Source: a virus. Taken from it: a DNA stretch of 42,504 nt. Positions within the stretch are counted from its first letter, which is position 1; every line of letters begins with the position of its first letter. Made by a program: the position numbers and the translations under genes. Below are positions 2,431 to 41,941 of this stretch, in pieces. The notes beneath the pieces were generated by a model, which was given only the letters and a program-made list of their open reading frames with translations, was not told where the DNA came from and made no database searches. The DNA is taken from IMG/VR virus record IMGVR_UViG_3300036766_002276, positions 1 to 42,504 of that record, one strand, 5' to 3'.

Positions 2431-3465
2431 CTATGGTTGCTGCAGGCGCTTCAGAATGTCCGAGACTGGCGTCTTGATCTTCGCCAATGGGTTGGCTCTA
2501 TCTGCTTCCCTGGCCAGCTTCCTGATGGCCAGGTCGGTGTAGATCTTGGTCGACGTCGGATCGCTATGGCCCATCAGCATCTGCCGCACGAGGAGATCAA
2601 CATCGGACTCGGCGAGCTCGGCGCCGAAGAGATGGCGCATAGCATGCGGGTGCAGGTGCTCCTTGGGGATATCAAGGTCCTTGCCATAATGGGCGAAGAT
2701 TCGCGCCAACGCCCTGCGATTCAGTCGCCGGCGAGCACCTCGGTATTCATGCGCCGGGCAGCTCGGACACTTTGTCGAGACGAACAACACGCGATCGCCG
2801 TCGTCGAGCTGGCGATCGATCGCCTTCAGCTCCGCGTGGTCGATGTACACGCGCAGCATCAGATCCGCATCCTGCGGCACAGGCACCTTGCGGACGCGAT
2901 CGCCTTTCTCCCGAACACGGATCACCAGGCGCGGCCGCCCGTCGATCGACTCGTGCAGTACGTCGCTCTCGTTCAGCCCCACCAGGCCGCTTACGCGCAG
3001 GCCGCAGCCGAGCAGCAGCGCGAACATCGCGCTGTCGCGCACGCCGATGAACGTGTTGTAGTCCGGCGCGAACATCAACTTCTCCGCGCTCGCCAGACTC
3101 ATGGCCTCGGGCAGCGCGCGCGGTATGCGCGGGTATTCGATATTGGCGGCCACGTTCGTCTTCACGTGGCGGTTTGCCACCAGCCATTTATAAAATTCGC
3201 GCACGCCCATCACGTAAGTCCGGCGCGCCGCGGGCCCGAGGCCCTTCCGATGCAGCCAGATCCCGGTGAACAGCACCAGGTCATCGCGCGTCCCCTCGAG
3301 CGGATCGCGGCCGGCATAGAACTCCTCCATGCGACCGAGCGCGAGCCGGTACGCCTCGATCGTCCGCAACGACCTGTTTTTGTTGTGGCGCTTAAACTCC
3401 AGGAACGCGGTTACCCGCGCGCTGAAATCGCCGACCGATCCTTCAGACACTTGCACCCGGAGCAC
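2431..3465 (-). CDS. Tyrosine site-specific recombinase/integrase (XerC/D-like)
   Basis: This is a 344-residue phage-type tyrosine recombinase. The N-terminal half (about 11-105) is the SAM-like core-binding domain. The C-terminal catalytic domain shows the full active site: R157 in GLRVSG, a Lys in the REKG turn near 187, H274-x-x-R277 in HPHAMRH, H300 in MGH, and the nucleophile Y309 in KIYTDL. The length is typical of integrases. The assigned start is a GTG at 3465. The nearest Shine-Dalgarno-like sequence (GAGGGG) is rather far away, so the exact start is uncertain by a few codons. The gene lies directly downstream of the iteron region, where attP arm sites would normally be found. It is one of three recombinase genes here. 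Confidence 0.93.
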   Translation of the reverse strand: MLRVQVSEGSVGDFSARVTAFLEFKRHNKNRSLRTIEAYRLALGRMEEFYAGRDPLEGTRDDLVLFTGIWLHRKGLGPAARRTYVMGVREFYKWLVANRHVKTNVAANIEYPRIPRALPEAMSLASAEKLMFAPDYNTFIGVRDSAMFALLLGCGLRVSGLVGLNESDVLHESIDGRPRLVIRVREKGDRVRKVPVPQDADLMLRVYIDHAELKAIDRQLDDGDRVLFVSTKCPSCPAHEYRGARRRLNRRALARIFAHYGKDLDIPKEHLHPHAMRHLFGAELAESDVDLLVRQMLMGHSDPTSTKIYTDLAIRKLAREADRANPLAKIKTPVSDILKRLQQP

Positions 3466-3720
3466 CCAAATCAGCTATCCCCTCGTTAACAAAGAAAAAA
3501 ATATGGGTGCAAGTTGAATTCTGCCATGCACCCGCCGGACCCACCAAAAGATGCCGAAACCCGCGTCCAGACTGAATTTCAGGCCGGGTGGGAGTGAGTT
3601 ATCCACAGGCGGCACTTGCACCCAACATGCACCCGAAGCACCCAACATGCACCCTCACATGCACCCAAATAATTATCTTAAAAAATAGATAGATAGATCG
3701 TTTTGGGTGCTCCGGGTGCA
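3452..3720. repeat. Iteron array with DnaA box and AT-rich tract (candidate replication origin or att arm sites)
   Basis: Eleven copies of the motif TGCACCC, or its core GCACCC, occur in both orientations between the integrase start and the end of the primase-helicase gene: 3452, 3462, 3505(-), 3527, 3617, 3628, 3638, 3648, 3660, 3705(-) and 3714(-). The five central copies are 10-12 bp apart, about one helical turn. They include a 17-bp direct repeat at 3618-3634 and 3638-3654 (20-bp period). A 19-bp perfect inverted repeat (TGCACCCGGAGCACCCAAA, 3452-3470 with 3702-3720) encloses the array. A perfect DnaA box lies at 3599-3607, and an AT-rich stretch with ATAG repeats spans 3667-3697. This combination is typical of iteron origins. 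Integrase arm-type sites are the main alternative. Confidence 0.75.
3599..3607 (+). promoter_or_regulatory. Consensus DnaA box
   Basis: The sequence TTATCCACA matches the strict DnaA-box consensus exactly. It sits 10 bp from the helically phased iteron block and about 60 bp from the AT-rich tract. That supports reading the surrounding gene-free stretch as an origin opened with help from host DnaA. Confidence 0.6.
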
Positions 3721-3829: not shown

Positions 3830-6800
3830 TTAACTGAATTGCGCCTTCGGCGCGATTTGCGGCGCTGCCGCGGAGGTGGCGGGCAACGGGGGCGAGCCGC
3901 AGGCTTGCGCATCCCCCTCCGGTGCCTCGTAGTCGGTCCAGGACCACAGCGTGATGCGGTTGCCATGGATCACCTTGTCGGCGGTCGGAGACCACCCCTC
4001 TGCCCTGATCGTGGCGATCTCGTTGGCGATCCGCACGCCGAGCTGCTTGGCGTTCACGAATGGCACCCTGACGCCGTACTCGCGGCCGTAGCGCATCATC
4101 ATCGAGAGCAGATCGGCCGTGGTGCAGCGGAAGGTGTAATAGTGGTGCCCGATGCCTCTGCCGTCCTGCACGATCTCCTCGCGGGCCACCTTCAGGCCCA
4201 GGAGCTCGCACCACAGGGGCTCATTGCCCACAGTGTCGGCCTTGCGGCTGTATTCGATCAGGAACACGCGCTTGAGGCCGTTCAGGAGCTGCAGCACCGC
4301 GTTGGTGCCCTGCTCGATCATGCGGCTGTGCTCGTTCTGGTACTTGATCCATGCATCGAGCAGCACATATTCCGGCGCGCGGTTGCCCGCATCGGCCGAG
4401 AGATCGTCCGACAGCGGCATGTAGCGCAGCAGCGCCTTCGCGATCAGCACCAGCAGCGACAGGTACTCCGTCACCCGCTCCTTGCTGAAATCGGCGTGTT
4501 GCTCCTTCGCGTAGCGGATCAGCGCGCCGCGTTCGGACAGGCTCGGCATTACTTTCTCCGCCAGGATCTGCAGCCAGGCCGACAGCAGATCGTCGCGCTT
4601 CGCCCCCATGCGCTGAACCGTTTCCGTCTCGACGAAGTCCTTGCGCTGCCAGCGCTTGGAGAAATCGACACAGAAGGTGCGGTTGATCAGTTCCGGCCGC
4701 GCGAACGGCTCGATCGCGGTGATGGCCACCAGGCAGTTGATCGTTTCTTTCACGACCTCGGAGGCGGTGCCCTGGCCGCGCTTGATGTTCGAGGCGCCCG
4801 TGGCCGCGAGCAGGAGGAAGTTGAGCGCGTTGCGGTTCAGATCGTCCGTCTCCAGGTTATCCTTGATGATCAGCGGCTCGGTGGAGGCCATCGAATAATC
4901 CGACGCAGTGGTCGAGCGGCCGACCATGTTCTCGCCGTAAATCAGGAGAGACATCAGCTTCGCGGCCGTCGTCTTTCCGGATCCCGACATGCCCTCCATT
5001 TTCATCAGCGCGCGGCTCTCCGAGAACGGCAGCAGGAACGCCGACAGCGCCCAGGCGAGCAGCAGGTAGCGCTGCGCCGGCTCGCAGCTCATATTGTCGA
5101 GCAGCAGCGTCTTCATCTCGCGCATCGCGGCCGCCACGTTGACCTCGGGGTCGTAATCGAACTTCTTCATCTGCCCGGATTCGGACAAGAGCACGTTGTG
5201 CGCATTGGTGCCGTTCTCGGCCAGGTCCACCTCGCCGCCGGCGATGGCAAGGATCCTGTTGGCAGGGTCTTTGAGGTTCAGGTACAGCACCGGCTTGTCG
5301 TCGTCGTTCAGGAGCGAGATCCAGCCGAACTCGGACAGCCGGTCGCCGCGCGTATAACAGAGCGATCGCAATTCCTCCCACACGAACTTGGCCAGCGCCG
5401 TGGTGTAGTTGATGCCGGTGAGTTTGTGCATCAGCGCCTTGAACGGCGTGTTGTCGCCGATCTGGTAGATGGTCTGCTCATAGAAGATGTGGAGCTTGTC
5501 GCCCGAGACAAAAAACCGGCCGTGCGATTTGAAGTACTCCCACACCTGCATCGACGCCACGCGCATGAAGCCTTCGCTCTTGGTCGATCCGTTGAAACTC
5601 GCCACCAATTGCTCCAGCGTCTCGCGCAGGTCGAAGCCGTGCTTGATGCTGTTCAGCACGCTGTCGCGCGAGAAGCCGAACTTCTGCAGCTCGTTGATCA
5701 CCGCGTCGCGCTCGAGCTCGGGCAGCAGCGCCAGGTACTCGAAGAAATCGATCTCCTCGAGGTAGCGCAGCGTCGCGTCGGCCGCCTCGCGCACGTTGGC
5801 CGGCAGCACCTTCAGCTCCCACAGCAGCGGGTTGTGCGCTTTCTTCAGCGCGGCCGCGATCCGCCGCGGCGCGCCATCGATGTCTTTCTGGATCCAGTCG
5901 TCCGGATCCTCGCCCGGCTCCATCAGCGCGCTGGCCACCACGCACTTGCAGCCGCGGTTGCGCAGCAGGTGCTGATAGAGCTTGCGCGTGTACTTGATGC
6001 CCGCCGGCGGCTGGCCCTGGTCGCCCCACTTCGTGTCGTAGTCGAACCACAGCACGAAGCGCTTGCCCGCGGCGTGCGTGTCGATCCAGCGGATCTGCTC
6101 GGCCGACACGCTGCCCAGGGACGCGAGCACGTTGCGGCTGCCGGCGTCGATGAAGCTCGCCAGGTCGTTCTCGCCTTCGCACAAGATCACGGTCTCCGCC
6201 TTGATCGCCTTCTGGTTGCCCCAGGCGAAACCGTCGAGCCGGTTTTGCGCGCGGAACTGGTAGTCGATCTCCTTCTTCGGATCCTTCAGCGTGAAATGCG
6301 CCACCTCGCCCGAGGGCAGCCGGTGCGGGAAAATCGCCAGACCGGGCAGGAAGAAATCGCGCCAATCCCCGGGCTTGCCCTTTTTTTCGACGTAGAGCCC
6401 GGCCGCCTTGATCTGCTCGAGCGTGAAGCCCTGCGCCTGCAGCGCCTGCGCCAGGCGCCCGTCGGAGGCCCCCACCTCCATCGCTTCCAGCGTCGCCGGC
6501 TTGTGCCCGCGGCCCTTTTCCGCCTTCGGCGCCGTCAGCCAGGTCAAAAGTTCCGGCCGGCTGGCCAGCACCAGGCGGTAATGCGAAATCGAGGCCTCCA
6601 GGATGCGCTGTAGCACGCTATCGGCGGGGGGCCGGGCCTCTCCCCCTCCCCATTCCGTCTTGCGCTCAGGCAGCGTAACGCCGGCGAACTGCGCCACGTC
6701 GCGCAGCGCGTCGCCCTTGGCCAGGGCCTTGTGCGCCTCGGCGAAGGTGAACACGTCGCCGGCGCGATCGCAGGAGTGGCACTTGTAAGCCGACATCCCC

Positions 6801-6997
6801 TCGCCGTAGAGCGTGAAGCAATCGTTGTGGCCGCAGAAGGGGCACGGATTGAAGCGGATCTGCGACCCCACGCGCGCCGGCGCGAGGTTGGTCACATGCT
6901 GGATATAGTCCACCAGGTTCGCGCGCGCCTTCACGTCCTGAAAAATGCGGGTCGTGTCGCGCGGATCCTTGGCCTTGGAAGCTTGGCTGGTTGTCAT
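3830..6997 (-). CDS. DNA primase-helicase fusion (CHC2 zinc finger, TOPRIM, AAA+ helicase)
   Basis: This 1055-residue replication protein would prime and unwind DNA at the phage origin. Residues 52-76 form a CHC2-like zinc ribbon (CPFC and CHSC pairs). Residues ~268-345 form a TOPRIM domain with the acidic CEGEND motif (E274) and DYD (319-321). The C-terminal half carries an ATPase with Walker A GMSGSGKTT (669-677) and a Walker B-like acidic stretch near 709-720. This primase-plus-helicase layout is known from phages and satellites such as P4, although the helicase class cannot be fixed by eye. The start at 6997 has only a weak upstream SD. The gene ends next to the iteron region, consistent with a self-contained replication module. 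Confidence 0.88.
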   Translation of the reverse strand: MTTSQASKAKDPRDTTRIFQDVKARANLVDYIQHVTNLAPARVGSQIRFNPCPFCGHNDCFTLYGEGMSAYKCHSCDRAGDVFTFAEAHKALAKGDALRDVAQFAGVTLPERKTEWGGGEARPPADSVLQRILEASISHYRLVLASRPELLTWLTAPKAEKGRGHKPATLEAMEVGASDGRLAQALQAQGFTLEQIKAAGLYVEKKGKPGDWRDFFLPGLAIFPHRLPSGEVAHFTLKDPKKEIDYQFRAQNRLDGFAWGNQKAIKAETVILCEGENDLASFIDAGSRNVLASLGSVSAEQIRWIDTHAAGKRFVLWFDYDTKWGDQGQPPAGIKYTRKLYQHLLRNRGCKCVVASALMEPGEDPDDWIQKDIDGAPRRIAAALKKAHNPLLWELKVLPANVREAADATLRYLEEIDFFEYLALLPELERDAVINELQKFGFSRDSVLNSIKHGFDLRETLEQLVASFNGSTKSEGFMRVASMQVWEYFKSHGRFFVSGDKLHIFYEQTIYQIGDNTPFKALMHKLTGINYTTALAKFVWEELRSLCYTRGDRLSEFGWISLLNDDDKPVLYLNLKDPANRILAIAGGEVDLAENGTNAHNVLLSESGQMKKFDYDPEVNVAAAMREMKTLLLDNMSCEPAQRYLLLAWALSAFLLPFSESRALMKMEGMSGSGKTTAAKLMSLLIYGENMVGRSTTASDYSMASTEPLIIKDNLETDDLNRNALNFLLLAATGASNIKRGQGTASEVVKETINCLVAITAIEPFARPELINRTFCVDFSKRWQRKDFVETETVQRMGAKRDDLLSAWLQILAEKVMPSLSERGALIRYAKEQHADFSKERVTEYLSLLVLIAKALLRYMPLSDDLSADAGNRAPEYVLLDAWIKYQNEHSRMIEQGTNAVLQLLNGLKRVFLIEYSRKADTVGNEPLWCELLGLKVAREEIVQDGRGIGHHYYTFRCTTADLLSMMMRYGREYGVRVPFVNAKQLGVRIANEIATIRAEGWSPTADKVIHGNRITLWSWTDYEAPEGDAQACGSPPLPATSAAAPQIAPKAQFS

Positions 6998-7001
6998 TTT
7001 T

Positions 7002-7117
7002 CGTTGTCGGTGGGCACATCAGTGGCGCCCGCGGTGCAGCAGGAGGAGGAGCATTTCCATCCGCGTCGCCACCTGCCGGGATATGCCCCTCTAGCCGGCC
7101 TTGGGGTTCCTGAAGTT
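7002..7117. other. Short spacer upstream of the primase-helicase gene
   Basis: This stretch between the methyltransferase and primase-helicase genes has no supported gene. On the minus strand it contains a 13-codon Leu-rich reading frame (MEMLLLLLHRGRH) ending shortly before the primase start. That could be a leader peptide but may equally be chance. Confidence 0.3.
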
Positions 7118-7147
7118 AAAATTGGGATTTATATCTTTAACTTGCAT
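7118..7147. repeat. Left arm of inverted repeat flanking the methyltransferase
   Basis: Read on the minus strand this arm begins ATGCAAGTTAAAGATATAA and continues to about 30 bp. The same 19 bp occur in opposite orientation at 7910-7928, followed by one mismatch and a shared TCCC. The arm contains the last codons and stop of the methyltransferase gene. Confidence 0.8.
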
Positions 7148-7901
7148 GGCTCTTTAATACCTTGAATGCAGTTGCTGCCACTCGCGGAACCTGTCCATTC
7201 CCAAGGGCTTGAAGTCGCTCCATCCGATAGGCCAGCCCATTAACCACTCGACAAACTCCGGGTTCATCTGGCCAGTCGGTAGGTGCCGACCATCTTTCAT
7301 TTCCGCCCTGCATACAGCAAAACTCAGTGAGTCTTGAGTTACCTTCCCATCCCACTTCAGGGCCGTCCCCATCGTGCAACTTGCATCCCGCGGGGACTTC
7401 GTTGGCGTAGGCCAGAATCCAGATTCTTTCCCGTTTATGAATTCCTCCGACGTGATGCGCTCCCAGCACTCCCCATTCCGCATCGAACCCCAGCGCGGCC
7501 AAGTCTCCGAGAACTCGGTGTAGCCCCCGAAAAGTGAGTGCTGGGCTGTTTTCCACGAACGCGAATCGCGGCTGTATTTCGCGAATGATCCGCGCCATCT
7601 CTCGCCACAATCCGCTACGCTCGCCTTCGATTCCCCTCCGGTTTGATCCTCCGGCTGTGCTAATGTCTTGACAGGGGAAGCCGCCCGAAATGACATCGAT
7701 TTTCCCTCGCCATTCCTGTCCGTTGAATGTTCGAACATCGTCCCAGATCGGGAACTTTTCGAGCAATCCATCGCGTTGCCTTGCGAGCAAAACACTTCGG
7801 CAGTAGATATCAATTTCAACAGCGCAGATGGTGCGCCATCCAAGGAGTTGCCCTCCCAAGATGCCGCCTCCTGCCCCTGCAAAAAGTGCCAACTCATTCA
7901 T
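7137..7901 (-). CDS. DNA cytosine-C5 methyltransferase
   Basis: This 254-residue enzyme transfers a methyl group from S-adenosylmethionine to cytosine in DNA. The conserved C5 motifs are clear: motif I LALFAGAGGG (4-13), motif IV GGFPCQD with catalytic C77, motif VI ENS (117-119), motif VIII KRERIW near 156-161 and a motif IX/X-like LGNGQVPR near 233-240. The target-recognition region between about 167 and 220 is very short, so the protein is smaller than most bacterial homologues, as in other phage enzymes. No cognate endonuclease is nearby, so it is an orphan, probably protecting phage DNA or altering host methylation. Its codons are more AT-rich than those of its neighbours, and inverted repeats bracket it, both signs of recent acquisition. 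Confidence 0.93.
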   Translation of the reverse strand: MNELALFAGAGGGILGGQLLGWRTICAVEIDIYCRSVLLARQRDGLLEKFPIWDDVRTFNGQEWRGKIDVISGGFPCQDISTAGGSNRRGIEGERSGLWREMARIIREIQPRFAFVENSPALTFRGLHRVLGDLAALGFDAEWGVLGAHHVGGIHKRERIWILAYANEVPAGCKLHDGDGPEVGWEGNSRLTEFCCMQGGNERWSAPTDWPDEPGVCRVVNGLAYRMERLQALGNGQVPRVAATAFKVLKSHAS

Positions 7902-7909
7902 TTTCCGAA

Positions 7910-7941
7910 ATGCAAGTTAAAGATATAAGTCCCTAAATTTT
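7910..7941. repeat. Right arm of inverted repeat flanking the methyltransferase
   Basis: On the plus strand it begins ATGCAAGTTAAAGATATAA. It lies 9 nt upstream of the methyltransferase start and contains the stop codon of the preceding DUF1566-like gene. It pairs with the arm at 7118-7147. Confidence 0.8.
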
Positions 7942-8343
7942 TACTCTACGGACAGCGCGCGCCCTGAGCTCGGCACTCTTGTGGAGGCTGGTCCGGTAGC
8001 CATAGGAGAAGAGCTGGAACCAGGCGGAGCCGGCGTCAGAGGCGTGTGGTTCGCATGACCAGTACGCCTCGTCCTTGAACAAATGCCTGCCATTGACGCG
8101 GCCGAGGCCGAGCTCGCGCAGATTCAACACCGTCCCGCCCTGTTTCTTCGCCCAGGCTTGCGCCTGGTCGAACGTGCCTGACTTCATCTCGCCAGGCAAC
8201 ACGATCACGTGGCACTCGGGCTTGCCGTTCTGATCGACGAGGTAGCCGATGTTTACCTCGCCCCTCTTCAGCGCTGGGAGTTTGATGCTGACGGCCGCGG
8301 AGGCCTTGCTGATCTTCGGTGCTGCAGCTTTCTTGATTGCCAT
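7933..8343 (-). CDS. DUF1566-like protein
   Basis: This 136-residue protein has an Ala/Lys-rich N-terminus and a C-terminal half resembling DUF1566-type phage proteins. The recognisable parts are TFDQAQAWAKKQGGT, then DEAYWSCEPHASDAGSAW and an ending ELRARAVRRV, a C-type-lectin-like signature. Its role in phages is not established. The start at 8343 is set by a good AGGAGA site 6 nt upstream; longer in-frame starts run back into the tRNA-like region. Domains of this sort can be displayed variable proteins in diversity-generating retroelements, but no reverse transcriptase is visible here. The stop lies within the right inverted-repeat arm of the methyltransferase cassette. Confidence 0.7.
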   Translation of the reverse strand: MAIKKAAAPKISKASAAVSIKLPALKRGEVNIGYLVDQNGKPECHVIVLPGEMKSGTFDQAQAWAKKQGGTVLNLRELGLGRVNGRHLFKDEAYWSCEPHASDAGSAWFQLFSYGYRTSLHKSAELRARAVRRVKI

Positions 8344-8377: not shown

Positions 8378-10378
8378 TCACGCTGCCAAACGCGCGTGAG
8401 GAGTTGGAGCGGGCCGCGGGACTCGAACCCGCGCCGGCGCTGGTCGCGCCGTGTCCCCGTCTGGATGCGCCCGCGTTGAAATGCCTGCCTCGCCGGCACG
8501 CTCGTGCTGCATCCAGCCAGGCGGTGTCGCGCGAAGGAATCGCACAGTCTTCCAATACCGCCGCGCCCGGGCGCGGACCGCGCTGCGGTGGTAGCGCATG
8601 CCGGCCTTCGACGGACAGCGATCGAGCTCGCGCTCGTTCGCCCACTTGATAATGGTCGCGGTCGATACGCCCGCTTCGCTCGCCGCCTGGGACAGGCGCA
8701 GCCAGTGAACGCCGAAGCGCTCGCGCTTTACCGGATGCCGCTTTGCGTGCTTCAGGCGCTGGAACATCGACTCGGTGATGTAGAGGCGGCGGCGGTCCCA
8801 CTTCGCGCGCGACAGCCTGATGGTGCCGTCGAGCTTGCGCTCGTGGATCCATGCCAGCGACACGCCGAGTTTCGCGGCCGCCTGCTTGAGCGTGTAGCCC
8901 TCGCTCGATTTAAGGCGGTTCTTGACTGCGTTCACGGTGTCGAGCGGGATGCCCCTGGCGCCGCGCCAGTTCACTCCTTTGAGTAAAATCCGGAATCGCG
9001 CGATCGAGACGCCGACACGCCCCGCGGCCTGCTCCTCGGTGAATCCGATCTGCTCGCGCAGCCGCGCGCATTGCTGCCGCAGCACATAGGTGACACCCCG
9101 CGCAGCGCCGGCCGTGCCGAGCTTCGATCGCAGTCTCCCTTTCGCGATGAACGCGCGCAGCTCGTAGAGCTTGAACCCGTACCATTCATGCGCCGTGGCG
9201 AGCGAAATCCACGACCTGTAGCTGCCGCCCATCGGGCATTTGCGCGCCTTCCAGCGCGTCGCCTCGGTGCGCGACACGTAGTAGCGCCCGCCGACCTTGT
9301 TCGCCTCGAGCATGCCGTTGGTGATCGCGTTCATCACCGCGCTCAGGCTGCGGGTGCAATGCCGCGCCACCTCGGCCGGCCGCATACCGAACCGCCATTC
9401 GCGCGTCAGGTGCCGCTTCGCGCCGTAGGCGATCGGCGGATAGCGCAGCAGGTAGTCGTCGAAGGTGCGCGGTGCGCCCTTCGGACCCCATATATGCGCG
9501 CAGGTCGCGCAGCTCGCCGGATGCCGCCTCGCCTGCAGCAGCTTCCAGGTCACCGTAAGATTGCTGGGTTCGGGTTTGCCCCACCATGGCAGCGGGCGCC
9601 CCGCGCGCCGGTCCGCCACCAGCTTGCGCGCGACCTTCGGATCGACGAACCAGGTGCCGAACTTCGTCGAGTGGATCCCCAGGCCGAACGGGTTGCAGCG
9701 CACCGCGGTCGGCACGTAGCCCATGCGCGCCCACTCCGAGAGCTTGTCGCTGTTGATGCCGAGCGGGCGTTTGAGCGTGCTCAACTGCACATAACCCTTC
9801 GGCGGGAACACGCGCGACGCCTTCCACGCCTCCCATGCCTGCCTCGGAATCACCCACAGGCGGCCGACGCGAAACGGCCGCAACTGCTTCGCCTTGATGA
9901 CCTGGTAGATCACGGCGCGCGTGCCGATCTCGCGGCCGGCCTCGGCGATGGTGATTCCGCCCACGACGTCGATCGTCATCATCCCCAGCCGGTGGTTGAT
10001 CGCCATCTGCACGGAAAGGGCCGAGCGGCTGGCGCCGCGATCGCCGGACAGTTCCCGCAGGCGCTTGGTCAGGACTTTCGAAATCTGCGCCTTGTCTATG
10101 CGCCCGACCAGGCTCGCCAGGAGCGCGAGCTCCGGCGCCTGCCAGTTGTAGCTGCCTCGGTTCGACTTCCGCGGCGCCGGCCATTCGCTATCCAGCGGCG
10201 GCCGGCCGTGCCACAGGGTAAAAAGCTCAACGAAGCACTTGACTGTCTTCAGCCTGGTGCAAACGCCTCTCGCGCGCAGCCGCGCGATATCCTTGGCGGG
10301 TTGCCCGAGGACGGCCGCCAGATCGTACAGATAGGCGCGGAAGCCGTGCTGGAGAACGAAGCGCTGCCAGTCGGTCAT
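8378..10378 (-). CDS. Poly-helix-turn-helix DNA-binding protein
   Basis: This 666-residue protein is built from about seven consecutive modules that each resemble a MerR/excisionase-type winged HTH: ~141-190 (ITIAEAGREIG), 196-255 (LSTLKRPLGIN), 330-380 (MRPAEVARHC), 388-440 (ISLATAHEWYG), 444-490 (FTEEQAAGRVGVS), 493-545 (YTLKQAAAKLGVS) and 556-605 (LRLSQAASEAGVS). Several end with the typical wing and a Y/W-V-x-R/P segment. No catalytic domain is visible. It probably binds an extended or repeated DNA site, as a regulator, origin factor or nucleoid-like protein. The start at 10378 is fixed by an ATGA overlap. The Pro/Arg-rich tail after ~632 overlaps the tRNA-like sequence and is probably not conserved. 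Confidence 0.75.
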   Translation of the reverse strand: MTDWQRFVLQHGFRAYLYDLAAVLGQPAKDIARLRARGVCTRLKTVKCFVELFTLWHGRPPLDSEWPAPRKSNRGSYNWQAPELALLASLVGRIDKAQISKVLTKRLRELSGDRGASRSALSVQMAINHRLGMMTIDVVGGITIAEAGREIGTRAVIYQVIKAKQLRPFRVGRLWVIPRQAWEAWKASRVFPPKGYVQLSTLKRPLGINSDKLSEWARMGYVPTAVRCNPFGLGIHSTKFGTWFVDPKVARKLVADRRAGRPLPWWGKPEPSNLTVTWKLLQARRHPASCATCAHIWGPKGAPRTFDDYLLRYPPIAYGAKRHLTREWRFGMRPAEVARHCTRSLSAVMNAITNGMLEANKVGGRYYVSRTEATRWKARKCPMGGSYRSWISLATAHEWYGFKLYELRAFIAKGRLRSKLGTAGAARGVTYVLRQQCARLREQIGFTEEQAAGRVGVSIARFRILLKGVNWRGARGIPLDTVNAVKNRLKSSEGYTLKQAAAKLGVSLAWIHERKLDGTIRLSRAKWDRRRLYITESMFQRLKHAKRHPVKRERFGVHWLRLSQAASEAGVSTATIIKWANERELDRCPSKAGMRYHRSAVRARARRYWKTVRFLRATPPGWMQHERAGEAGISTRAHPDGDTARPAPARVRVPRPAPTPHARLAA
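8405..8474 (-). tRNA. Degenerate or shortened tRNA-Gly (anticodon ACC)
   Basis: Seventy bases on the minus strand fold as a tRNA. The 5' acceptor GCGGGCG pairs with GGCCCGC over six of seven positions. The D-arm is short (TCC/GGA). A 5-bp anticodon stem (CGGCG/CGCCG, 8435-8451) carries the 7-nt loop CGACCAG, with ACC at positions 34-36. A perfect T-arm has loop TTCGAGT (8416-8432), followed by discriminator T and an encoded CCA. The acceptor ends, the NCC anticodon and the CCA all match bacterial tRNA-Gly. Irregular points are G at position 33 instead of U, a two-base variable loop, a G-G pair at 7:66 and the overall shortness. It overlaps codons 635-658 of the poly-HTH gene. It may be a decaying or non-canonical tRNA. 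Confidence 0.5.
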
Positions 10379-10773
10379 GGCAGAATGATCCGTTGTTCCC
10401 ACGGCGCCGGATCCGGCACGCCGTGAAGCACGATAAAACCATGGATGACACCTTCGGCGTTGAGCGACGGATCCATCGCCCACGCGCCCTTGGTGATCTG
10501 ATCAAGGCCGTAGGTCTTTAGTTCCCCGTTTTCGACCTCCAGCGCGCCCAACCTGACCGGCATCGGGAACGACGGCATATTCGGACCGAGCCAGAGCACA
10601 AGCTCGCCGTCGATCATCCCGCAAACTATCTCGTCCGCCCAGGCCTTGTGCTCGATCACCGCGGCGAGATCCTCCCGCCAGCGAAAGAAAAACTGACAAA
10701 CCGGAATACTCGGATCGTCGAAGTGCTCAGCGGCGCTGATTTGCCATTCCTCCACGTCGCGCCAGAACTTCAC
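10375..10773 (-). CDS. Hypothetical protein, 132 aa
   Basis: No family is recognised. The protein is acidic and aromatic-rich (KFWRDVEEWQ at the start), with mixed alpha/beta character and no membrane segment. The GTG start at 10773 overlaps the stop of the ATPase gene (GTGA), and its own stop overlaps the poly-HTH start (ATGA). It is therefore translated between the two and may act with them. Confidence 0.65.
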   Translation of the reverse strand: MKFWRDVEEWQISAAEHFDDPSIPVCQFFFRWREDLAAVIEHKAWADEIVCGMIDGELVLWLGPNMPSFPMPVRLGALEVENGELKTYGLDQITKGAWAMDPSLNAEGVIHGFIVLHGVPDPAPWEQRIILP

Positions 10774-11714
10774 GCCCGCCCCTCCAGCTCGTCCGCGAGC
10801 GCGCGCTGGCCCGAGAGCATCTGCTGCGGCGACAGCCCCGCCACGGCGCCCAGCAGCCCCACCATGGGCTCGGTGAGCGAGCGCAGCCTGGCCGCCGGCA
10901 TGTCGCGCATGGCGCGATCCCACTGGCTGAAGGTCGACGGCAACTTAGGTTTGATGGCCTTCGCCTTCTGCGCCACGCGCTTCAGTGCCTCGGCCATCTG
11001 CATCCTGACTTTCTCGACGCCGCGGCGGCTGAAACAGAAAAATTCTCCCGGCGCGAGCGCGGCGAGGTCGTTGAACTCGATCTTCGACGATTTGAACTGC
11101 GGCGCGAGCGCGGCCCAGGCGGTCGGGTCCTCCTGGCAGCCGATCAGCGACAGGTTCTTGTTGGCGAAGATCGAGCGGTGCAGCGAGCCGGTGAAGCGAT
11201 GCGCGGTGAGAAAGAGATCGAGCGCGCGCTTCCGTCCGCGCTCGGCGAACTGGTTGACGATGTCGGCCGCCTCGCCGTTATCGTTTTTGCGCTTCCTCGG
11301 CGCGCTGAACACCTGGCCCTCGTCGATCATCAGGAAGAGCGGCTTGCGATGTTCCTCCGCGGCATCGAGGATGGCGCGCCCGTAGGGAATGAACTCGCTC
11401 GCGTCCCCGGCCGGTACCACCACGAACGGCTGGTCGCGCTGCGCCAGGCGCCGGCGCAGCGCATCGATGCCGGCGACGGGCTCGCCGTACATCGCCGAGA
11501 TCTCGCCCTCTGGATCGATCAGCACGCAGATCCACCCCTGCTTCGCGAGCTGCTCGGCCATCAGCAAGCCGGCGTTGGTCTTGCCGATGCCGCTCGGCCC
11601 CACCGCGACGACACGCAACCCGGTGGTGGCGTACTCCGACAAGTCGATCGCGGCGCTGCCCAGGTCGAGCACAGCGTCCATCAACTCCGGCCGCTGCAGT
11701 ACGGAACGGCTCAT
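10770..11714 (-). CDS. HerA/FtsK-like P-loop ATPase
   Basis: This 314-residue ATPase has Walker A GPSGIGKT (39-46), Walker B LFLMIDE (126-132) and a downstream LTAHR segment typical of HerA/DUF87-type DNA-motor and ATP-binding proteins. Such proteins usually translocate or handle DNA, but the phage role is not known. The start at 11714 is fixed by an ATGA overlap with the upstream gene; longer in-frame starts lie wholly inside that gene. The tight overlaps on both sides suggest a complex with the 151-residue protein upstream and the 132-residue protein downstream. It is not the packaging terminase, which lies at 39954-41549. Confidence 0.8.
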   Translation of the reverse strand: MSRSVLQRPELMDAVLDLGSAAIDLSEYATTGLRVVAVGPSGIGKTNAGLLMAEQLAKQGWICVLIDPEGEISAMYGEPVAGIDALRRRLAQRDQPFVVVPAGDASEFIPYGRAILDAAEEHRKPLFLMIDEGQVFSAPRKRKNDNGEAADIVNQFAERGRKRALDLFLTAHRFTGSLHRSIFANKNLSLIGCQEDPTAWAALAPQFKSSKIEFNDLAALAPGEFFCFSRRGVEKVRMQMAEALKRVAQKAKAIKPKLPSTFSQWDRAMRDMPAARLRSLTEPMVGLLGAVAGLSPQQMLSGQRALADELEGRA

Positions 11715-12166
11715 GCTTCGTCCCCCTCTTTCGCGCGCAGCAGCACGTCCTGCAGGCGCAGCACCTGCCCGGAAGAAAGCGAATACACCACGGCGAAATC
11801 GTCGATCACCTGGCGCGTGATCTTGTCGAGCACGCCGCCGCGCCTGGCGTTGGCCACGAGCTGGCGCAGACTCGACCAATCGTGCCCGCCGTCCGGGACC
11901 ACGGCGGCCGCGCCGATCTCGGCGTGGAGCTGCTCCATCGTGTGCGCGATCGCGTCCGGGCCCAGGTCGCAGGCGAGGCGCTCGTTGAGGATGTCGAGCA
12001 ACTGGCGCGCGGGCATGTAGCCGTGCACCTTCGCGATCAGCGCTTTCTCCGCGGGCGTGAACGCGCGCGGCGCGGGATCCTTGAGCAGGTGTACGTTGCG
12101 CTTCCTCGCGCGCGCGTCGATCGTCGCGAGCGTGTCGATTTTGAGGCTGCCGAATACGCTGCTCAT
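11711..12166 (-). CDS. Hypothetical protein, 151 aa, upstream of the ATPase
   Basis: The family is not recognised. Charged helical segments predominate, with TPAEKALIAKVHGYMPARQL near 47-66 and a C-terminal helical region. Its TAATG start junction (12164-12168) and ATGA stop junction place it tightly between the zinc-ribbon protein and the ATPase. A partner or adaptor for the ATPase is the natural inference. Confidence 0.65.
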   Translation of the reverse strand: MSSVFGSLKIDTLATIDARARKRNVHLLKDPAPRAFTPAEKALIAKVHGYMPARQLLDILNERLACDLGPDAIAHTMEQLHAEIGAAAVVPDGGHDWSSLRQLVANARRGGVLDKITRQVIDDFAVVYSLSSGQVLRLQDVLLRAKEGDEA

Positions 12167-12740: not shown

Positions 12741-12937
12741 GCCGCCACCTCATGACCCGCGCAGGCCTCGGCGGCTGCCGGGGCGGCCGCCTGTCCCGCA
12801 ACAGGATCGCCGCCCGCGTCCGCCTCGTACCAGCAGCCGTCGTGATTTTTCGCATAAGCCGCCGCGAGCCGCTGGCTGTCGGTGATGGCGCCGGTGATGC
12901 TCCCGTCCGGCCAGGCTACGCCGTAGCGCGCGCTCAT
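12737..12937 (-). CDS. Small hypothetical protein, 66 aa
   Basis: It begins MSARYGVAWPDGSITGAITD, has a compact first half and ends in an Ala-rich tail. No family is recognised. ATGA overlaps on both sides, with the short tyrosine recombinase upstream and the membrane protein downstream, support it as a gene. Confidence 0.6.
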   Translation of the reverse strand: MSARYGVAWPDGSITGAITDSQRLAAAYAKNHDGCWYEADAGGDPVAGQAAAPAAAEACAGHEVAA

Positions 12938-13638
12938 GCCGCCGCCTTCTGCGCATACGCCGCCGCCACTTTGTCGGATGGCAGCCTGGACGCCCCGTCG
13001 ACGGCCTCCAGCCCCTCCAGCAGCTCCTCCTTGCTCACCGCGGTGTAGATCCCCGTCGACGCGATCGAGCCGTGCCCCAGGGCCGCCTGGACCAGCCGCA
13101 GGGGGTTCGCCGAGGTGGACCGGCGCATGATGTTCATCGCCCGGGTGTGGCGCAACCAGTGGGGGCTCGCGTGGCCGATGCCGGCCGCCTGGCACCAATG
13201 CGCCATGCGGAACTCGTAGGTGCGCACGGACATGCGGCCGTGCTTGCGGCTGAACACGAGCGGCGCCTCCGGCGTGCCCGGCCCGCCCATTTCGGCGTGG
13301 ATCGCGCACAGCGCCTCCAGCGCCTCGCGCACCGGCCGGGTGACCGGCACCTGGTGGTCCTGCCGCGTCGCCGCCCGGGCCGGCCTATCGCCCGTGGCGG
13401 GCTTGCCGCCCGTCGCCTTGCGGTTCTCCCTGGGGATATACAGCCAGCCGGTCTTCAGGGCGAACTCGGCGTCCGCCAGGTTCATCCGGGCGAACTCCCC
13501 GATCCTCAAGCCCGTCGAGCGCAACAGGGAGATCCAGGCATAGTCGCGCCGCGCAAGGACCGCAGCATGCGACCTCAACGTCGCCATCACCTTCGCCTGC
13601 TGCGCGTCCGTAAGATATCGTGTGATAAACCGGCTCAT
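12934..13638 (-). CDS. Short tyrosine recombinase (catalytic domain only)
   Basis: This 234-residue recombinase consists almost entirely of the catalytic domain. R45 lies in TGLRIGE, H160-x-x-R163 in SPHWLRHT, H189 in LGHGS and the nucleophile Y198 in GIYTAV. The usual N-terminal core-binding domain is missing: only about 35 residues precede the first catalytic Arg. The start at 13638 has a strong GGAGGAG site. Solo catalytic-domain recombinases act in some phages and plasmids on inversion or dimer resolution, but the target here is unknown. It heads the tightly coupled block running down to the poly-HTH gene. Confidence 0.87.
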   Translation of the reverse strand: MSRFITRYLTDAQQAKVMATLRSHAAVLARRDYAWISLLRSTGLRIGEFARMNLADAEFALKTGWLYIPRENRKATGGKPATGDRPARAATRQDHQVPVTRPVREALEALCAIHAEMGGPGTPEAPLVFSRKHGRMSVRTYEFRMAHWCQAAGIGHASPHWLRHTRAMNIMRRSTSANPLRLVQAALGHGSIASTGIYTAVSKEELLEGLEAVDGASRLPSDKVAAAYAQKAAA

Positions 13639-39709: not shown

Positions 39710-39957
39710 TACGGCGTCTCCTTCGATTCGAATGCTTTTGTCAGCTCGTCGCCGCGCAGGAACGGGCCGCCGAACGCATTCGGCATCTCCCGCGGCGGAC
39801 CCACGTAGGTCACCGATCGCCAGCCGTCGATCAGGCCGGCCCGGTGCAGCGCGTGGATCAGGGGCACGGCGTCCGGGATGGTCGCGTGCACCGCGGCGCG
39901 CATTTCAGCCGCGCGGGCGTGACCCTCGGCGGTCAGGGGCTTCGCGGGCGCGCTCAT
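39709..39957 (-). CDS. Small hypothetical protein between terminase and portal
   Basis: This 82-residue protein is helical with an N-terminal Ala-rich segment and contains WRSVTYVGPPREMPNAFGG. It overlaps both the terminase stop (ATGA) and the portal start (TAATG), which strongly supports its being translated. The family is not recognised. Confidence 0.65.
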   Translation of the reverse strand: MSAPAKPLTAEGHARAAEMRAAVHATIPDAVPLIHALHRAGLIDGWRSVTYVGPPREMPNAFGGPFLRGDELTKAFESKETP

Positions 39958-41549
39958 GCCGCCGCCTGCGCCGGCAATCGCGGCAGCCGCACCGCCTGCC
40001 CGAGGAGCTGCTCCCGGCTCTGGGTGCGGTGCTCGATCACCGCCGGCGCGTCGATCGCGCCGCGCGTCACCAGCGCCCACACCGCCGCCATGGCCGCGTC
40101 GAACAGGTCGTCGCCGTGCTTCACGTCGGCCATCTTGTAGCTGGCGTAGCTCGCCTTCGTCGGAACAGCCTTGATGTTGCCGAGCTGGCGCACCAGCAGC
40201 CGCCAGTCGGCGAGGCCTGCGGCGAGATCGAACTCGTCGAAATACGGGATCGCCGCCTGGCTGTTGTGGAACATCGAGCGCACCGCCGTGGCCATCTGGT
40301 GCTTCACCATGCCCTCGAAGCGCAGTGGCGCGAATGGCCACTCCGTCCAGGTGCTGGCGGTGCTCTGCCCGTCGCCGATGGTGCGCCGGTCGATCTCGGT
40401 CAGCCCCTTGGCAAAGAGGCGATCATTGAGGCTGGTGAGCATGCCCACGCCGTAGGCATCGCCGATCGCATAGTCTGGCCGGAAGTATTCCCACATCCCC
40501 TGCAGGTCCAGCTCGACCACCTTGTCGTCGGTGCCCGGCGCCCAGGTCTTCACGAAAATGAACACGGTGAAATTGCCGATCTGCTCCACTACCACCAGCG
40601 CCGATTTGGATGCATGCTCCGCCTCGCCGTGCCCCGTGTGGTCGTAGCCGAAACCGATCAGGCCGCGCTTGCGGTAGCGCTGCCCCGGCAGGGGTTCCGC
40701 CGCCTCCAGGCGCGCCTTAAGCCCCACCGCGAGCGCCTGGCGGATGTAGCGCTCGTGGATGTGGTTGGTGGCCGAGACGTTGCGGCACAGGAATTGGCGG
40801 ATGTACTCGTGCGGAGCGAGTTCGGACCGCTGCTGCAGCACAAACGCCTCGTTCAATATCTTGAGCTCAAGACCGAGGTGCACGTTGACCGCCGGCAGGA
40901 TGTGGTAATTGCCCGAGTCGATCAGCCGCTGCAGCGTGTCCGCGCCCTTGAACACGCCCGAAATCCTTATCTGCGGCTTGAACGAAACGCCCCGCGGCGC
41001 GCCGACCCGCCCGGCGCCGCCCAACATCGGCAGGAAGTTGTTCAGCAGCCGCTCCTGCGGCATCTCGTCGGTTTCCTCCAGCGACGCCACCGATATCGCG
41101 TCGCCGTCCACCTGGCTCATGATGCCGTAGGCCTGCGCGCGCGAGCGGTTCGCGAACTGGTAGCGGGTATCGGCGAGCTGCTCGCGGCCGCTCTTGTGGA
41201 AGACGTAGGCGCGCAGCAGCGCCGAGCGCCGGATCGCGTCCGTGTGGTAGTTCATGTTGGTCTGCGCCTGCTGTAGCCGCGGCGCGACGATGCCCTCCTC
41301 CTGGTACGGCGTGCAGGCGAGGTACTTGAGCGCGTAGAACTCCTTGATCGAGGTCTTGCGCGAGCGCCGGCAGGAGAAGTCGATCGTGTTCGGGTGCTGG
41401 TCCATCTCGATGCACTTCAACGCCTGCATCGCGTCTAGCTCCACGTTGTGCACGTGTTTTGCCCACAGAATGTGGTCGTCCTTGTAGCGCAGGATCTCCT
41501 TCTCCGCGCGATTCGAGACGCGGACCCGCTCGGAGGCGGAGATTCTCAC
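39954..41549 (-). CDS. Terminase large subunit
   Basis: This 531-residue packaging motor has an N-terminal ATPase with a Walker A-like CRRSRKTS (60-67), a Walker B region ISVASLEETDE (152-162) and a C-terminal RNase H-like nuclease with acidic residues D303 (GFGYDHTG), D364 (AIGDAYGVG) and a final HGDDLFDAAMAAVW segment. The GTG start at 41549 overlaps the preceding stop (GTGA); an ATG at 41627 lies inside that gene. No obvious small terminase is present in the window. Confidence 0.9.
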   Translation of the reverse strand: MRISASERVRVSNRAEKEILRYKDDHILWAKHVHNVELDAMQALKCIEMDQHPNTIDFSCRRSRKTSIKEFYALKYLACTPYQEEGIVAPRLQQAQTNMNYHTDAIRRSALLRAYVFHKSGREQLADTRYQFANRSRAQAYGIMSQVDGDAISVASLEETDEMPQERLLNNFLPMLGGAGRVGAPRGVSFKPQIRISGVFKGADTLQRLIDSGNYHILPAVNVHLGLELKILNEAFVLQQRSELAPHEYIRQFLCRNVSATNHIHERYIRQALAVGLKARLEAAEPLPGQRYRKRGLIGFGYDHTGHGEAEHASKSALVVVEQIGNFTVFIFVKTWAPGTDDKVVELDLQGMWEYFRPDYAIGDAYGVGMLTSLNDRLFAKGLTEIDRRTIGDGQSTASTWTEWPFAPLRFEGMVKHQMATAVRSMFHNSQAAIPYFDEFDLAAGLADWRLLVRQLGNIKAVPTKASYASYKMADVKHGDDLFDAAMAAVWALVTRGAIDAPAVIEHRTQSREQLLGQAVRLPRLPAQAAA

Positions 41550-41941
41550 GGAGCCGCTTCCTCCGCAGGAGTCGTTCCGCGCTTCGCTCTGAGTTCCACG
41601 ATGCGCTGAATCTCGACTGCGGGCCATTGCGCCGGGCTCATCGATTCGCCATCCAACCAGGTGAATTCATCTAGCGGCCGATGCACTTGGCAGTTGCAGC
41701 AGTACGTCAAGCCATAGAACCACGGATCGGCCGCGTAGGTGGCGCTGAGCTTGTGGCCCATCGTCGTGGTATAGCCACACGTCTGGTGCTTGTAGGCCTC
41801 GCGATAGGGCTTGAGGTAGCCCGCGGCAAGGTCCTTGTCGGACATGACCAGATAAACGTCATTCTGCGGCCGTCTTTCCGTTTCGCCGCCGATCGGGCCG
41901 CGCTGGATCCTCGGATCGTCCGGATCATCTGTTAGGCTCAT
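41546..41941 (-). CDS. Cysteine-containing hypothetical protein upstream of terminase
   Basis: This 131-residue protein has a possible metal-binding centre (CGYTTTMGHKL, then GLTYCCNCQVH) surrounded by aromatic residues (ADPWFYGLTY). It may be a small zinc-binding accessory factor for packaging. The family is not recognised. It overlaps both neighbours by ATGA or GTGA. Confidence 0.65.
   Translation of the reverse strand: MSLTDDPDDPRIQRGPIGGETERRPQNDVYLVMSDKDLAAGYLKPYREAYKHQTCGYTTTMGHKLSATYAADPWFYGLTYCCNCQVHRPLDEFTWLDGESMSPAQWPAVEIQRIVELRAKRGTTPAEEAAP

Follow-up and report, generated by a model that had tools for sequence, protein, structure and literature searches.

Motors of the FtsK superfamily can be guided by winged-helix (wHTH) domains acting on short repeated DNA signals, as in FtsK/SpoIIIE and in TraB of Streptomyces. 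In TraN of Enterococcus (4pm3), which we take to bind double-stranded DNA, two excisionase-like wHTH domains presumably stand in tandem in one chain. Xis, BldC and RdfS are small proteins, each of which builds filaments on DNA out of many copies of itself: BldC of Streptomyces stacks head-to-tail on DNA direct repeats (PMC5859096), and RdfS of ICEMlSym forms superhelical filaments (PMC11963761). On plasmid pCW3, the wHTH protein TcpK binds tandem 9-nt boxes at oriT (PMC6137059).

The locus compared here with these systems lies in a stretch of 42,504 bases from IMG/VR, analysed as a whole (the window). Its tail-fibre J, tape measure, portal and head morphogenesis genes identify it as a tailed phage or prophage; no conjugation genes were recognized in it. 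An ORF 5' of the portal gene (39954-41627) has by eye the look of a large terminase and gave no Pfam or PHROG match. The window also encodes three site-specific recombinases (1-1704, 2431-3465 and 12934-13638), namely one large serine integrase and two tyrosine recombinases, one of which is reduced to the catalytic part (just 234 aa); the same set is found in the relatives L006, L008, L012 and L021.

A string of about seven wHTH modules

The gene of interest lies on the minus strand (ATG at 10378, stop ending at 8378) and encodes a 666-aa protein, P0001. The ORF is real: the GC content at its third codon position is 0.83, and it has homologues over its full length. An earlier, sequence-only reading had described the product as about seven tandem HTH modules between residues 141 and 605, devoid of any enzymatic domain. 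The product is indeed a string of about seven wHTH modules: an AlphaFold2 (AF2) model built with 23 sequences contains seven helix-helix-(wing)-helix units between residues 141 and 611, all but one of which are winged, and HTH_17 matches and hhalign comparisons support most of these units. The gene and its parts are as follows.

8378..10378, minus strand: multi-wHTH protein P0001 (666-aa ORF, full-length homologues)
10208..10330, minus strand: N1, N-terminal HTH-like helices, residues 17-57 (AF2 secondary structure only)
9989..10138, minus strand: N2, three-helix Myb/homeodomain-like unit, residues 81-130 (AF2 secondary structure, strong conservation)
9818..9958, minus strand: wHTH module A, residues 141-187 (HTH_17, TIGR01764, hhalign)
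9605..9790, minus strand: wHTH module B, residues 197-258 (AF2, MAFFT register with the other modules)
9395..9595, minus strand: segment X, residues 262-328, HPxxCxTC...GAKRHLT (most conserved part of the alignment)
9245..9385, minus strand: wHTH module C, residues 332-378 (HTH_17 E 2.9e-4, hhalign)
9047..9211, minus strand: wHTH module D, residues 390-444 (AF2, weak hhalign D-G 1.4e-3)
8906..9043, minus strand: HTH module E, residues 446-491, no wing predicted (AF2, hhalign, HMM)
8738..8896, minus strand: wHTH module F, residues 495-547 (HTH_17 E 9e-4, hhalign)
8546..8704, minus strand: wHTH module G, residues 559-611 (HTH_17 E 2.8e-6, phrog_66)

The Pfam HTH_17 profile matched the protein in four separate stretches (46.9 bits for a cut-off of 27, E 3.4e-12), which single-stretch scanning placed at residues 144-189, 332-376, 495-542 and 559-607 (E 3.5e-6 for module A). 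TIGR01764 ('excise') scored 36.3 bits for a cut-off of 28.8, its best stretch being residues 154-187 in module A, and the phrog_66 excisionase profile matched module G (E 4.6e-10). The fold of single modules agrees with these assignments: Foldseek aligned them to Pukovnik Xis (4j2n, TM 0.77), to BldC (6amk, TM 0.72, 1.8 A over 46 columns) and to RacA (5i41, TM 0.67). Curated cut-offs and fold thus both place the protein within the HTH_17/excisionase-like wHTH superfamily. When two modules were searched together, TraN (4pm3) was matched with a TM of 0.36, and the best match in a viral structure library spanned a mere 126-residue protein.

That the modules are repeats of one another is apparent from the profile-profile self comparison that the sequence-only reading had proposed as a check. 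Indeed, slices of the family alignment compared by hhalign were linked in register, with A-C the best pair (1.5e-10), followed by C-F (4e-7), E-F (5.7e-5), A-F (8e-5), F-G (1e-3) and D-G (1.4e-3). In a MAFFT alignment the modules share the HTH, a 'GxLR'-like turn, the wing and a C-terminal helix. A control in which single-module HMMs were run against shuffled copies of the protein was more severe, clear significance being reached for A-to-C and E-to-F only (12.8 bits for the latter, for at most 4.5 with shuffles). Altogether, modules A, C, F and G are strongly supported, module E moderately and module D weakly at the sequence level, while module B, which gave no significant profile match, is a structure-only prediction. 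Finding fewer than three HTH folds had been named as grounds for abandoning the multi-module description; four modules are firm and the model shows seven HTH units.

No enzymatic domain was detected by Pfam, NCBIfam or PDB-sequence searches, in keeping with the earlier description, and the conserved segment at residues 262-328 has no assigned function. This segment, in which 27 alignment columns are conserved at 95% or more, carries a CxxC motif and is a possible metal site; like the HTH-like units at residues 17-57 and 81-130, it had gone unmentioned in that description. The net charge is positive in every module (+3.7 to +7.1). The AF2 model combines a mean pLDDT of 81 with a pTM of 0.38, the low pTM being expected of a beads-on-a-string arrangement. 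While the single-module fold is already known, an architecture of about seven modules in one chain is unusual.

A cassette shared by phages and conjugative plasmids

The gene is preceded on its 5' side by a small optional gene and by two genes with which it forms a three-gene cassette.

10375..10773, minus strand: small optional gene between the ATPase and wHTH genes, 132 aa
10770..11714, minus strand: FtsK/HerA-superfamily ATPase, 314 aa (Walker A GPSGIGKT, Walker B FLMIDE)
11711..12166, minus strand: P0003, first cassette gene, about 151 aa (adjoins the ATPase gene in every fully covered locus)

The HerA-like ATPase noticed beside the wHTH gene in the sequence-only reading is therefore this 314-aa protein of FtsK/HerA fold; a 500-aa ORF considered as its gene was discarded as an over-extension. 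Its AF2 model (pTM 0.73) retrieved TcpA (2.3e-7) and HerA (2.2e-6) with Foldseek, along with STIV B204 and VirB4. With a RecA-like fold, Walker A and B motifs and matches to HerA, TcpA and B204, it qualifies as a soluble motor of the FtsK/HerA type, predicted to translocate. An assignment as a terminase (phrog_2666) was dropped, given the FtsK/HerA fold and the terminase-like ORF at 39954-41627. Many P0003 homologues have an N-terminal CxxC...CxxC. The product of the 132-aa gene gave no family match, and full-length relatives of it occur in L012, L013 and L014 only. The junctions of the cassette in the window are overlapping ATGA/GTGA.

Relatives of the wHTH protein were retrieved via the ATPase gene and then with the family alignment, from viral contigs and genomes; a peptide-pattern scan of viral contigs based on the wHTH protein alone had found nothing. 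The full-length protein is present in at least 25 further loci (47-73% identity where measured, the nearest relative being that of L021 at 73%), and 22 relatives can be aligned over the full length, at 47-72% identity. HTH_17, TIGR01764 and phrog_66 match every family member scanned. The carriers are tailed phages, prophages and conjugative plasmids of Pseudomonadota, with hosts including Achromobacter, Acidovorax, Variovorax and Chromobacterium, and complete copies of the gene lie on plasmids pAZI09 and pTY921B and on a Variovorax plasmid. The protein is rare: it was found in 3 of 399 Burkholderiales genomes and in none of 50,697 phage records, and a sample of 398 Pseudomonadota yielded it in no genome other than the centre genome. 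The two regions flanking the cassette showed no DNA similarity to plasmids and phages. Broken or frame-split copies of the wHTH gene occur in L046 (10001-11673) and in genome G228 (L052 and L053), which suggests that the gene has been lost in some lineages.

The linkage of the three genes is strict: P0003, the ATPase and the wHTH protein are all present in every locus that covers the three positions. Of the 399 Burkholderiales genomes, exactly three (G008, G099 and G228) encode the wHTH protein, and these same three are the only ones with the ATPase, at adjacent coordinates. L006-L008, which have no wHTH protein, have no ATPase either, in a search that had no positive genome of its own. The pairwise distances of the two proteins are correlated (r = 0.73, a value reached by none of 5000 permutations), a correlation that the joint inheritance of adjacent genes may explain without any contact.

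By contrast, the surroundings vary, being a phage early region, an ICE-like plasmid (between parB and PFL_4669-ssb-topoisomerase) or large conjugative plasmids, so that the purpose of the cassette cannot be read from its context. A ParB-family gene lies directly or shortly 5' of the cassette in L025 (6705-8270, phage) and in L048 (9463-10989, ICE-like plasmid), which is not a general rule. The phage L012 carries, besides the cassette, a second HerA/Zot-like ATPase (6265-8247, DUF87 E 8e-7). In a B. glumae plasmid (L066, 2954-3778), a P0003-like domain, recognized by eye, is fused in frame to modules F-G inside a tra operon; this is probably a deletion product, the other reading being a functional short form. 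No k-mer near the cassette was shared above random controls that could serve as a target motif, and no repeat array was found near it in the other phage loci.

The linked motor bears on what such a chain of modules could be. One alternative is a long-range regulator or silencer of transcription, in which a BldC-like covalent filament would bend promoter DNA and set an early/late or a maintenance programme. BldC, a transcription regulator built on this module, occupies extended sites, and the MerR-like regulator profile phrog_2474 matches 19 of 23 family members. However, regulation has no need of a strictly linked FtsK/HerA motor, and a conserved operator looked for 5' of the cassette was not found, so that we consider this explanation unlikely.

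Still less likely is an excisionase or recombination directionality factor (RDF) whose chain would bend att DNA for one of the integrases of the element. The module does match TIGR01764, phrog_66 and Xis 4j2n, the window has three recombinases, and the next gene after the cassette encodes an integrase in L028, L029 and L034, while in L027 an integrase likewise lies 3' of it. Yet the type of the neighbouring integrase varies (serine in L028 and L029, tyrosine in L034), no integrase adjoins the cassette on the plasmids, and L006 and L008 encode relatives of all three recombinases while lacking the wHTH protein. Moreover, known RDFs need no motor; they are small single-domain proteins with a dedicated integrase, while the present protein has 666 aa and an integrase neighbour that is inconstant or absent.

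We give an equally low weight to a role in defence or counter-defence, either as a DNA coat against host nucleases or as part of a MADS-type anti-phage system. PADLOC matched the ATPase to mad8 (E 1.2e-12) and the wHTH protein to mad1 (E 1.1e-9), the distribution of the cassette is that of an accessory element, and methyltransferase genes lie nearby in several loci. The mad8 match is nevertheless at the superfamily level, as the model also matched 14 of 14 control genomes and 200 of 200 tested, mostly in FtsK-sized ORFs; the NCBIfam MAD1 model scored 14.8 bits for a cut-off of 80, and no other mad model matched any of the four cassette proteins searched. A kinship of the cassette with MADS was therefore rejected. 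As a side result, the PADLOC model PDLC04140 (mad8), used alone, will yield false MADS calls.

Iterons and the primase

The window contains an array of TGCACCC-type iterons at 3452-3720, where the 11 copies reported in the sequence-only reading were recovered as 11 GGGTGC within 300 bp. Behind the primase-helicase gene (3830-6997), these iterons, an exact DnaA box (3599-3607) and an AT-rich stretch together look like a replication origin. Since the array and the DnaA box come immediately after the primase gene, at 5 kb from the wHTH gene and in the same direction, the wHTH protein could be a replication initiator that binds them, and the earlier reading had indeed pointed to the array as its possible target.

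The comparison of loci argues firmly against this. The TGCACCC array is present, in 10-13 copies, in all five loci with the primase of the window, including L006, L007 and L008, where the wHTH protein is found nowhere in the contig. Conversely, L021 and L033, which have the wHTH protein, encode a different primase (phrog_5629; 70% identical between the two, with no meaningful match to that of the window) and carry CCACGG-type iterons at the same place. Iteron counts over whole contigs agree, and no such array was found in the covered stretches of the other phage and prophage loci with the wHTH protein. The iteron type thus goes with the primase family, not with the wHTH protein, which makes the primase-helicase, or some partner that is inherited together with it, the likely reader of these repeats. 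An iteron-binding initiator is expected to co-occur with its own iterons, which the wHTH protein does not, and we regard this function as very improbable. The idea that a single molecule reads a long repeated array has consequently lost the array at 3452-3720 as its object, while the one-molecule reading may still hold for some other DNA. The locus provides a clean example of iterons that seem tied to a neighbouring DNA-binding protein and in fact go with the primase.

A possible mechanism and its known relatives

The explanation that we favour, with a probability of about one half, is that the wHTH array is the DNA-binding subunit of the cassette, marking or wrapping the DNA of the element and positioning the ATPase. 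The three genes would pass together from one mobile element of Pseudomonadota to another, be it a tailed phage or a conjugative plasmid. Excisionase/BldC-type modules, which in known proteins line up head-to-tail on DNA as separate short polypeptides, are here joined in one polypeptide, so that cooperative assembly would be unnecessary. By analogy, one molecule might cover a long stretch of DNA, some 70 bp if each module accounts for about one turn of the helix; continuous coverage is a prediction, as the pTM of 0.38 leaves the relative placement of the modules unset. Bound to a site on the element's own DNA, the wHTH protein would position or load the ATPase there, presumably by contact, and the motor would act on that DNA, for segregation, protection, transfer or compaction. 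Whether the whole amounts to an undescribed mobile-element machine of phages and conjugative plasmids, in which a covalently pre-assembled wHTH array, a stand-alone FtsK/HerA motor and a third small protein pump, segregate or protect element DNA from a specific long site, is a more tentative proposal, which we put forward as possible and no longer as an even bet.

Phages and conjugative plasmids alike keep the wHTH protein strictly paired with an FtsK/HerA motor, which suggests that they handle element DNA in a common way. Neither the architecture of about seven modules nor the three-gene cassette has a name in the libraries and literature searched, and no paper on tandem or multiple-HTH phage proteins was found there (most subscription journals lie outside this coverage). 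A natural chain of joined copies would also allow a direct test of fixed length, fixed order and module-wise choice of sequence in filaments of the Xis, BldC and RdfS kind.

The protein shares with BldC the MerR-like wHTH fold of its modules. However, BldC is a single domain of 68 residues that assembles from monomers, and the BldC family consists of stand-alone wHTH proteins of about that size, whereas about seven modules are here in one chain, which also has two additional units at its N-terminus and a CxxC segment and whose gene is linked to that of a motor. Xis (Pukovnik 4j2n, lambda) and RdfS have the same b-a-a-b-b-a module order and a mobile-element context; unlike the present protein, which has a constant ATPase and no constant integrase, they are single-domain and tied to one integrase. 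TraN differs in having two modules instead of about seven and in lying in a T4SS operon without a linked FtsK-type motor of such kind. In FtsK/SpoIIIE and TraB the wHTH domain is fused to the motor, while motor and wHTH array are here encoded by separate genes. The nearest working parallel to the ATPase and the wHTH protein would be the TcpA and TcpK pair of pCW3: TcpA is the best fold match of the ATPase and, as may be the case here, a separate wHTH protein decorates the DNA of the element, although TcpK has one domain and TcpA is a T4SS coupling protein.
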